NCBI GenBank assembly: GCA_028718745.1 | Contig: JAQULF010000010.1 | Span: forward strand, 1-34,828 | Reading direction: 5' to 3' | DNA length: 34,828 nt | DNA from: Patescibacteria group bacterium | Lineage (GTDB): Bacteria > Patescibacteriota > JACPGU01 | Part shown: in pieces, positions 683-3,181 of the stretch | Position numbering within the stretch: position 1 is the stretch's first letter | Layout of the letters: every line of letters begins with the position of its first letter | Notes under the pieces: model-generated | Seen by the model: only the letters and a program-made list of their open reading frames with translations | Database searches by the model: none | Told to the model about the DNA's origin: nothing | Position numbers and translations under genes: made by a program

Positions 683-1600
683 ATGTATAAGTACCAACAT
701 CCGAAACCAATCATCATAAAGCTTAACGATGAGCTTGGCTTCAAGTTGAGACAAAAAGCATCAGAATATATTATAGCAAATCAGAACAGAACGGGGGCAG
801 AAAGAGGAAGCTCCGAAGAACAAGGATTTGGTGCTCTAGCCGAGATCGTTATACGTAATAAGTTAGGAATGCCGGAAATAAATCCCGAAGATCATCCGTT
901 GGGCTATGATTTGTTATTACCATCAGGTGTGAAAGTAGATGTGAAATGTCGTGGCGGGGCATTACCTTTTAAGGAAGAGTATGAGAGTAACGATGGTATT
1001 GCAAGAGAAGCAAAACATAATTTTTTCGCACGTCAACTTTATGATGAAAGGCTAGATGCTGATATATATGTAATGACTCATCTAGAAACTCCTAGTAAAA
1101 GAGAGCTTCCGGGAACTACCAGACAAAGAAAGTGGGTACTTTATATTTGTGGCTGGGTTTCAAAAGAAAGAGTCGCGCGTGAAGGTGTATATTTGCCACG
1201 TGGCTCACTAACTGAACAGGGGAGAACTTGGTTTACCTATCGTGGTCAAGAGATAGAATTTTATAATCGTAATCTCAACGGTCTAGAGAAGGTCGAAAGT
1301 CTTTTGGATATAGAACAATCTGATGTTGAAAAAGATAAAGTGCATAAGGGAGATTTAAATCTAACATCGGTTGATGCGATAAGAATCGCATATGATCTTA
1401 TTGGGCGCGGTGTGCTTTCAGAAAAGCATCTCAAATTTATACAAAAAGAGACCCAACTGGAGAAAATTGTAAAGCCAGTTTTACATTCTAACCAATACTT
1501 TCATTTATTAGAGTGGTTAAAAGAAAAGGGAGTTCTAGATGACAACGAGATAGAAAAAGCACATAAGGTTTTGCAGAAAGAACCATTTAGCGGGATTTAA
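683..1600 (+). CDS. Predicted PD-(D/E)XK restriction endonuclease-like protein
   Basis: 305 aa with motif order E (GALAEIVI), D (GYDLLLPSG), DVK (KVDVKCRG), consistent with a PD-(D/E)XK active site. Convergent with a DNA methyltransferase gene, 3' ends overlapping. Confidence 0.6.
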   Translation: MYKYQHPKPIIIKLNDELGFKLRQKASEYIIANQNRTGAERGSSEEQGFGALAEIVIRNKLGMPEINPEDHPLGYDLLLPSGVKVDVKCRGGALPFKEEYESNDGIAREAKHNFFARQLYDERLDADIYVMTHLETPSKRELPGTTRQRKWVLYICGWVSKERVAREGVYLPRGSLTEQGRTWFTYRGQEIEFYNRNLNGLEKVESLLDIEQSDVEKDKVHKGDLNLTSVDAIRIAYDLIGRGVLSEKHLKFIQKETQLEKIVKPVLHSNQYFHLLEWLKEKGVLDDNEIEKAHKVLQKEPFSGI

Positions 1601-3062
1601 AGAGTTTACTGCTATCAACCCTACACTGTTTCTCCGCCTCTTTAATGCGTTTTTTACAGATTTCTATGTAGTCTATATGATGTTTTCGATGAAGATATAC
1701 TTCTTGGTTTTTCTCAATCCCAATAAACTTTCTGCCCTCCAAAACTGCGGATACAAGAAAGCTCCCACTTCCACAAGTATTATCTAATACAATTTCACCT
1801 TTTTTTGTGAAGGTTCGGATTAAATATCTTCCCAATTCGACTGGTTTTTGTGTTGGATGAAAAACCTTTCCTTCGCTCTCTGCAGTTTTGAAGTAGACTA
1901 CATCTGTCGGATATCTTGCGCCATCACTTTTTACTTCGACAGTTTTGAAATCACCGTAGCTACCAGTTAATTGATTTTTTCTAAAACCTTTATTGTATGG
2001 TTCACCATAAGTCATTTGTGGATTATAAATTGGTTGGTTTCTATAGAAAATGCATATGTCCTCATGCTTGCGCAGAGGCTGTTTTTTTGCATTTAAGAAA
2101 TTAGTTGGCTTGGATTTTACCCAAGTTATCTTATATTTAAACCATTTTGGATTAGATAACATGAGATTTGCTGTAAAAAGTCCCTGGCTTGTTAGCACAA
2201 TAACCCCGGCATCTTTAATAATTCTTTCATAATGTTCCCAAAGTTGGTTCAATGGAATAATGCTATCCCAATGATTTTGCGTAATCCCATACGGCAAGTC
2301 ACACAAAATCATATCTATTGATTTTGAGGGAATCTTTTTCATTGCCTCCAAACAGTCTTCCTCAATAACTTTATCTATAAATCTCTTAATATCCCTCTCT
2401 TTAGTAGCGTCTCCATTTTGAGAGCCAACTGTTAAAATATTCTTTTGGGAAGATGAAATATTTTTAATAATATCTACAACAATGCCCTGCACCCTAATTT
2501 CATGCTCATTATTTTTTATAATTATTGGCTCCATTTTTTTGTTCGCAGGTTGAAGCCGAATTTGATTTTCTTCTTTATATAACGTTTTTAGGGTTGCTTC
2601 ATAATTATCGATTAGCGCAACGATTTTATCTCCATTATTGGCTGTTTCTTGTTGTTTCACTAAGACGATATCGCCATCATTGATATTTTCATCAATCATG
2701 CTTTGTCCGACAACTTTTAATGCGAAATAGTTGTTGTTTTGAGATATTTTTGACATTGGTACCGCAATGCTTTCATCGTGATCCACAATAGCCTCTATCG
2801 GTTGCCCAGCAGCGATATTACCAAGCAAGGGGATTTGTATCATTTCGCCTTGCTCAACTATTTCAATACCGCGAGAAACTAAATCTTGTTTCTTTATAAA
2901 ACCCTTATCGACCAACGCTTCTATGTGCTGGTGAACAGTGGAGTTCGCAGAGAGCTTAAACTTCTTTTTTACCTCACCAATGGTAGGGGAAAACCCTTTT
3001 TTTTCTATATATTTTTTCAGATAATCCAGGAGATCTTTTTGTTTTTTTGTTAGTGTAGGCAT
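1587..3062 (-). CDS. LexA-like repressor (wHTH + S24 autoprotease) fused to a beta-class DNA methyltransferase
   Basis: Start at MPTLTKKQKDLL (3062) rather than the longer ORF start at 3146. LexA part: SPTIGEVKKKFKLSANSTVHQHIEALVDKGFI wHTH, LLGNIAAG cleavage region, VVGQSMID Ser, VALIDNYEATLKTLY Lys. MTase part: motif IV DLPYG, HPTQKPVEL, motif I LDNTCGSGSF in beta order. Confidence 0.93.
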   Translation of the reverse strand: MPTLTKKQKDLLDYLKKYIEKKGFSPTIGEVKKKFKLSANSTVHQHIEALVDKGFIKKQDLVSRGIEIVEQGEMIQIPLLGNIAAGQPIEAIVDHDESIAVPMSKISQNNNYFALKVVGQSMIDENINDGDIVLVKQQETANNGDKIVALIDNYEATLKTLYKEENQIRLQPANKKMEPIIIKNNEHEIRVQGIVVDIIKNISSSQKNILTVGSQNGDATKERDIKRFIDKVIEEDCLEAMKKIPSKSIDMILCDLPYGITQNHWDSIIPLNQLWEHYERIIKDAGVIVLTSQGLFTANLMLSNPKWFKYKITWVKSKPTNFLNAKKQPLRKHEDICIFYRNQPIYNPQMTYGEPYNKGFRKNQLTGSYGDFKTVEVKSDGARYPTDVVYFKTAESEGKVFHPTQKPVELGRYLIRTFTKKGEIVLDNTCGSGSFLVSAVLEGRKFIGIEKNQEVYLHRKHHIDYIEICKKRIKEAEKQCRVDSSKLFKSR

Positions 3063-3102: not shown

Positions 3103-3131
3103 AATATACCGAACAAAAGCCGAACATACAA
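3103..3131 (-). promoter_or_regulatory. Predicted promoter of the LexA-MTase gene (TTGTAT-N17-TATATT) with embedded LexA-box-like direct repeat GTTC-N7-GTTC
   Basis: Minus strand: TTGTAT (3131-3126), 17-nt spacer GTTCGGCTTTTGTTCGG, TATATT (3108-3103). GAAC at 3111-3114 and 3122-3125 on the plus strand. Confidence 0.65.
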
Positions 3132-3181
3132 TAGTGACTTATCCACAATATTAAAAATTAATAAAATTAAAGGAGGTCAAA

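Follow-up and report, generated by a model that had tools for sequence, protein, structure and literature searches.

How restriction–modification (R-M) systems avoid killing their cells when DNA damage or replication yields unmodified sites is an old question. The window analysed here, a stretch of 34,828 nucleotides from a Patescibacteria contig, raises it in a particular form: it encodes a protein that joins LexA to a DNA methyltransferase (MTase), and the promoter of its gene holds a direct repeat resembling a LexA-binding site. Does this fusion control its own synthesis? M.EcoRII, M.SsoII and other MTases are known to repress themselves through an N-terminal helix-turn-helix (HTH) (PMC3874152, PMC3978073), and the LexA of alphaproteobacteria recognizes a GTTC-N7-GTTC direct-repeat motif (PMC8565304). 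From the sequence, its conservation and the covariation between operator and recognition helix, we infer both binding and repression, and hold that the repeat is very probably the operator by which the LexA-MTase fusion represses its own gene. Beyond the original prediction, the analysis adds a likely partner restriction endonuclease (REase), a DnaA box and a phylum-wide family of fusions.

The fusion protein and its promoter

The LexA winged helix and the LexA-type S24 domain are both present in the fusion, as the PF01726 and PF00717 matches lie above their cut-offs, and the NCBI equivalog model TIGR00498 (lexA) scores 191 bits against a cut-off of 111. In the AlphaFold model the LexA module (residues 1-200) is confident and the MTase mostly so, with a disordered linker (residues 203-220) between them. 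DLPY lies ahead of DNTCGSGSF in the MTase, which is the beta-class motif order. The cleavage bond of the window protein is predicted to be Ala85-Gly86, and the Ala-Gly site and Ser/Lys dyad are kept in all 22 fusions of the working set defined below. The start at 3062, which the original prediction had preferred to 3146, is favoured by the homologous protein of L015, which begins MPTLTKRQK and matches the MPTLTK... at 3062.

Table 1. Features of the LexA-MTase locus, with positions in the window
Feature	Position	Strand	Basis
Convergent partner ORF, 305 aa, carrying YDLLLPSGVKVDVK	683..1600	+	3' end overlaps that of the fusion by 14 bp
LexA-Peptidase_S24-N6_N4 MTase fusion, 491 aa, stop 1587-1589	1590..3062	-	Pfam; TIGR00498; start via L015
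N6/N4 DNA methyltransferase domain	1605..2381	-	PF01555; PADLOC MTase_II; PDB relatives CcrM, RsrI, MboIIA
Probable flexible linker, residues 203-220	2403..2456	-	AlphaFold pLDDT <50
S24 autoprotease/dimerisation domain, Ala-Gly cleavage site, Ser/Lys dyad	2475..2831	-	PF00717; alignment with solved E. coli-type LexA chain
LexA winged-helix DNA-binding domain, recognition helix SANSTVHQHIEAL	2868..3062	-	PF01726; covarying H-x-H position
-10-like hexamer TATATT, spacer 17 nt	3103..3108	-	5/6 to TATAAT
Putative operator, TGTTCGG direct repeat filling the -35/-10 spacer	3109..3126	-	Direct reading; shuffles; same period in 21/22 homologous fusion promoters
Weak -35-like hexamer TTGTAT	3126..3131	-	3/6 to TTGACA; homologues place theirs alike
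Perfect DnaA-box consensus TTATCCACA (TGTGGATAA in the direction of transcription)	3139..3147	+	7 bp upstream of the -35

Read directly on the minus strand, TTGTAT (3131-3126) is followed by GTTCGGCTTTTGTTCGG (3125-3109, 17 nt) and TATATT (3108-3103), with GAAC on the plus strand at 3111-3114 and 3122-3125, and this layout, together with its exact coordinates, agreed with the original prediction on re-reading. The full repeat unit is longer than GTTC and consists of two copies of TGTTCGG (3126-3120 and 3115-3109) at a period of 11 bp. Promoter calls throughout are consensus-based; a generic promoter scan neither listed nor scored the TTGTAT/TATATT promoter. The motif had been expected about once per window and rarely in the 119-bp gap upstream of the gene, and the figures bear this out: with 0.67 occurrences expected in the window, GTTC-N7-GTTC is found twice, and when the dinucleotides of the gap are shuffled 20,000 times it arises in 9 shuffles and TTCGG-N6-TTCGG in none. 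A 7-nt run of any sequence turns up at period 11 in 358 of the 20,000 gap shuffles (1.8%), which makes the statistic for the single site good, not overwhelming; when any period from 6 to 30 is allowed, about one third of shuffles contain such a run. The one site alone is suggestive, and the decisive evidence for its predicted function is conservation across the family.

A family of fusions across the Patescibacteria

When 380 genomes sampled from the phylum were searched, open frames of 494 aa or more gave at least 20 LexA fusions in at least 19 genomes from 19 families, and these 20 together with L015 and L095 form the working set of 22. LexA and S24 domains are present in all of them, and their C-terminal parts are N6/N4, D12 or C5 DNA methyltransferases. 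In a tree of LexA sequences the fusions fall into one well-supported set (22 fusions among 26 rows, 100/98), which also contains two stand-alone LexAs, L150 and L154, each directly followed by an MTase-like gene, a C5 MTase according to Pfam in the case of L150. These pairs are possibly a split version of the fusion, perhaps mobile. The two LexAs (L150 788-1411 and L154 544-1167) are closely similar and come from two different families. Several relatives have a stand-alone LexA in addition to the fusion, and among the viral contigs scanned for LexA-MTase fusions, L095 is the only clear full-length case.

Outside the LexA group, homologues of the window's MTase have no cap or bear an Xre-like cap, a MerR/excisionase-like cap (by our own reading of the sequences) or, in Patescibacteria, a cap some 95 residues long, which makes LexA one control module among several that can be exchanged. 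This pattern suggests repeated exchange of putative autoregulatory N-terminal modules on one MTase family. The homologues that show this pattern are L017-L028, L033, L035, L036, L041, L048, L053, L057, L074, L096 and L103-L105. We found no description of LexA-MTase fusions in a literature search conducted mostly outside subscription journals, nor is LexA mentioned in a 2025 review of R-M biology.

Conservation of the putative operator and covariation with the recognition helix

Within 120 bp upstream of the start, 21 of the 22 fusions contain a stretch of 5 nt or more that recurs at period 11. Other periods from 6 to 24 are found in only 1-8 of the 22 promoters, and dinucleotide shuffles of these promoters give period 11 in a mean of 3.57 and a maximum of 10. 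The exception, L139, has only a degenerate TTCG-N7-TTCG repeat. The original prediction, which stood to fall if homologous fusions lacked the repeat, thus withstood the comparison. Period 11 also occurs upstream of 46 of 65 stand-alone Patescibacterial LexAs. The -35/-10 spacer is filled by the repeat in most fusions; L095, L111, L113 and L114 have it in reversed orientation and downstream of the -10.

The half-site is TTCGG in the window and TTCGA or TTCTA elsewhere, shifting along with the recognition helix. Homologue repeats include CTTCGGG, TTTCGAT and TTTCTAT, and the window promoter has the literal GTTC-N7-GTTC. The label 'alphaproteobacterial' given to the repeat suits its 11-bp direct-repeat geometry, which is common to both groups, but fits less well with a half-site that is TTCGG in the window and drifts to TTCGA or TTCTA. 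Residue x of an H-x-H motif in the helix, the counterpart of Glu45 in E. coli LexA (numbering from the alignment), agrees with the half-site in 25 of 25 LexAs, several half-site classes having been assigned by eye: Q or E accompanies GG-type half-sites (12/12), and H, Y or F accompanies TTCGA or TTCTA (13/13), F being paired with TTCTA in six of six cases. Two LexAs outside the derivation of this rule fit it as well, namely L325 (HEH, TTCGG) and L320 (HYF, mixed TTCTA/TTCGA). On the tree, all three supported pairs of independent helix and half-site changes agree (the sign test is not significant), and because such events are few, the covariation is strong as a pattern and modest statistically.

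These comparisons bear on whether the repeat could be there by chance or as an element of promoters in general. The frequency of period-11 runs in the gap shuffles, and of runs at any period, leaves some room for such an origin, but it is very hard to reconcile with a period conserved in fusions as divergent as these 22 and in many stand-alone LexAs, with the helix covariation and with the lack of the repeat upstream of REases. Conserved repeat and matching helix together strongly support autorepression, which had been predicted from the LexA winged helix of the fusion, as the probable role of the site.

The probable partner endonuclease and the restriction enzymes beside other fusions

The 305-aa ORF opposite the fusion is absent from the annotation, and the two genes meet stop over stop. 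The same convergent pair occurs in L015 and L095 (74-82% identity). The YDLLLPSGVKVDVK of this ORF, which we read as a PD-(D/E)XK-like motif, and its conserved convergent position suggest that it is probably the partner REase, of the PD-(D/E)XK type. Searches against Pfam, NCBIfam and PADLOC, and a PDB profile search, gave no match, and its AlphaFold model is of low confidence (pLDDT 54), too poor for a structure search. Nine other fusions adjoin a Pfam-recognised REase, and these belong to eight Type II families: MamI (two), ScaI, HindIII, BglII, BsaWI, NgoFVII_C, MvaI/BcnI and EcoRV. Fusion and REase genes are typically convergent, with stop codons that touch or overlap. No period-11 repeat was found upstream of any of 12 REase genes or REase-position ORFs. 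In L136 (1454-1870) a gene for a Vsr-type mismatch endonuclease lies upstream of, and divergent from, a LexA-C5 MTase fusion.

Small HTH genes or frame ends of the Xre/C-protein-like kind directly precede the REase in L095 (3151-3360), L109, L133 and L138, so that REase and MTase may have separate regulators. Such genes, and the stand-alone LexAs in several host genomes, also raise the idea that the repeat is bound chiefly by another regulator, either a host LexA or an Xre protein of the C-like kind, and that the LexA cap serves for dimerisation or for target search by the MTase. We consider this quite unlikely: the source genome has no other LexA and no Xre gene was seen in the locus, and where both LexA forms coexist their operators and helices differ, as in G152, in which the fusion has HFH with TTTCTA and the resident LexA VAEY with TGTTTGG. 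Self-binding by the fusion remains the preferred reading.

Genome-wide sites and the SOS context

The fusion is the sole LexA found in the source genome (887 kb, 97% complete); a second S24 match, considered as another LexA, proved to be a signal peptidase. The fusion might thus be the cell's general SOS LexA, with the operator as one member of a genome-wide regulon, and in a scan by exact pattern and of targeted stretches, TTCGG-N6-TTCGG does occur 13 times in the genome against once for a reversed control. However, about seven of these 13 sites lie in a dispersed intergenic repeat and most of the others in coding sequence or a GC-rich hairpin, and we rejected them as a LexA regulon. GTTC-N7-GTTC, with which the original prediction had proposed to find a regulon, is not enriched (17 matches against 28 for the reversed control), and seven of the eight retrieved matches lie inside ORFs, so that the scan lends it no support. 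Moreover, no LexA-type repeat was found upstream of recA and no Y-family polymerase in the source genome, and in several relatives a stand-alone LexA coexists with the fusion. A general SOS role is accordingly unlikely, and a local operator of the fusion gene is the better reading. The TTCGG-N6-TTCGG motif may already have been published; a 2017 study covers the Patescibacterial SOS network.

The dispersed intergenic repeat, rich in ATTCGGGAT/ATTAGGGA units, mimics LexA-type TTCGG repeats (L214, L217, L218, L219, L223, L224 and others). The recA frame (L225, G000 C1:201472-202257) contains one in-frame TGA just before the IIEIFGPESSGKTT segment, which is either a sequencing or assembly error or a real lesion. 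As recA is interrupted and has no LexA-type repeat upstream, the SOS step may fail in the source genome.

A DnaA box upstream of the promoter

Upstream of the -35 lies TTATCCACA, which we take to be the DnaA-box consensus. An exact box occurs within 200 bp in nine of the 22 fusion promoters, against a shuffle mean of 0.05 and a maximum of 2; it almost always reads TGTGGATAA and in most cases lies 7-8 bp upstream of the -35. A weak -35 tends to accompany the box, whereas promoters without a box tend to TTGAC[ACT]. Fisher p values for this association, which ignore relatedness, are 0.0075 with automatic promoter calling and 3e-5 with our own assignments, and on the tree all, or almost all, of the only three supported independent pairs point the way expected. 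L118 is an exception, L016 has both features and L325 has neither. That DnaA activates the weak MTase promoter from just upstream, in a replication-linked manner, is a plausible suggestion to which we give slightly less than an even chance. Across the genome, TTATCCACA occurs 16 times against 3 for the reversed control (L196-L211, G000), with intergenic copies near mraZ (two, facing each other), ruvC and a TRCF-like gene.

A proposed mechanism and its significance

We hypothesize that a dimer of the fusion's LexA would occupy both TGTTCGG half-sites between -35 and -10 and block RNA polymerase, and that by this block the MTase of a probable Type II R-M system would repress its own gene, with the convergent REase gene lying outside the control of the MTase operator. 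Upon DNA damage, RecA-activated self-cleavage at Ala85-Gly86, which is expected because the cleavage site and the protease dyad are retained, would sever the DNA-binding cap. With the cap gone, the promoter would be derepressed, an S24-MTase fragment would remain, and methylation would rise during DNA damage. The REase, which has no such operator, would not rise, and modification would therefore be favoured when unmodified sites appear. The upstream DnaA box would add replication-linked activation to the weak promoter. Damage-induced, SOS-type derepression of the fusion is, in our judgement, an evenly balanced prediction. More tentatively, we envisage a phylum-wide modular device in which a self-cleaving LexA is placed on the MTases of unrelated Type II R-M systems, damage raises modification and not restriction through removal of the cap, and the DnaA box provides coupling to replication that offsets a weak -35.

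The modification enzyme appears to bear its own damage sensor. The design occurs together with eight or more REase families and in 19 families of the phylum, and because it recurs in this way the idea is testable with one construct. Also, the series of recognition helices and half-sites is a ready specificity code for studying change in LexA operators.

Relation to known systems

The fusion shares with alphaproteobacterial and stand-alone Patescibacterial LexAs a winged helix, an S24 domain and an 11-bp direct-repeat operator over the LexA protein's own promoter. In contrast to these LexAs, it is joined to a DNA methyltransferase in a probable R-M locus, its half-sites are TTCGG, TTCGA or TTCTA, and no regulon was seen here. 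With Type II R-M systems controlled by C proteins it has dedicated transcriptional control in common, and some relatives (L095) have a C-like gene before the REase; here, however, it is the MTase that carries the control, and the examined REase-position ORFs have no such operator upstream.

Further parallels are M.EcoRII, M.SsoII/M.Ecl18kI, M.MspI, M1.LlaJI and M.ScrFIA, likewise Type II MTases, in which an N-terminal DNA-binding domain represses the enzyme's own promoter (PMC3874152, PMC3978073, PMC12707154). An N-terminal DNA-binding domain and a putative operator over the MTase promoter are both found in the window. These autorepressors are C5 MTases with a short HTH, the N-terminal region of M.SsoII comprising 71 residues, whereas the window MTase is of the N6/N4 type and its cap a full LexA-S24. 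In the LexA fusions the cap is a complete LexA with its autoprotease, it is found on several classes of MTase and it could sense DNA damage. Judged by its sequence features, the fusion works like the M.EcoRII/M.SsoII autorepressors and is not a member of their family.
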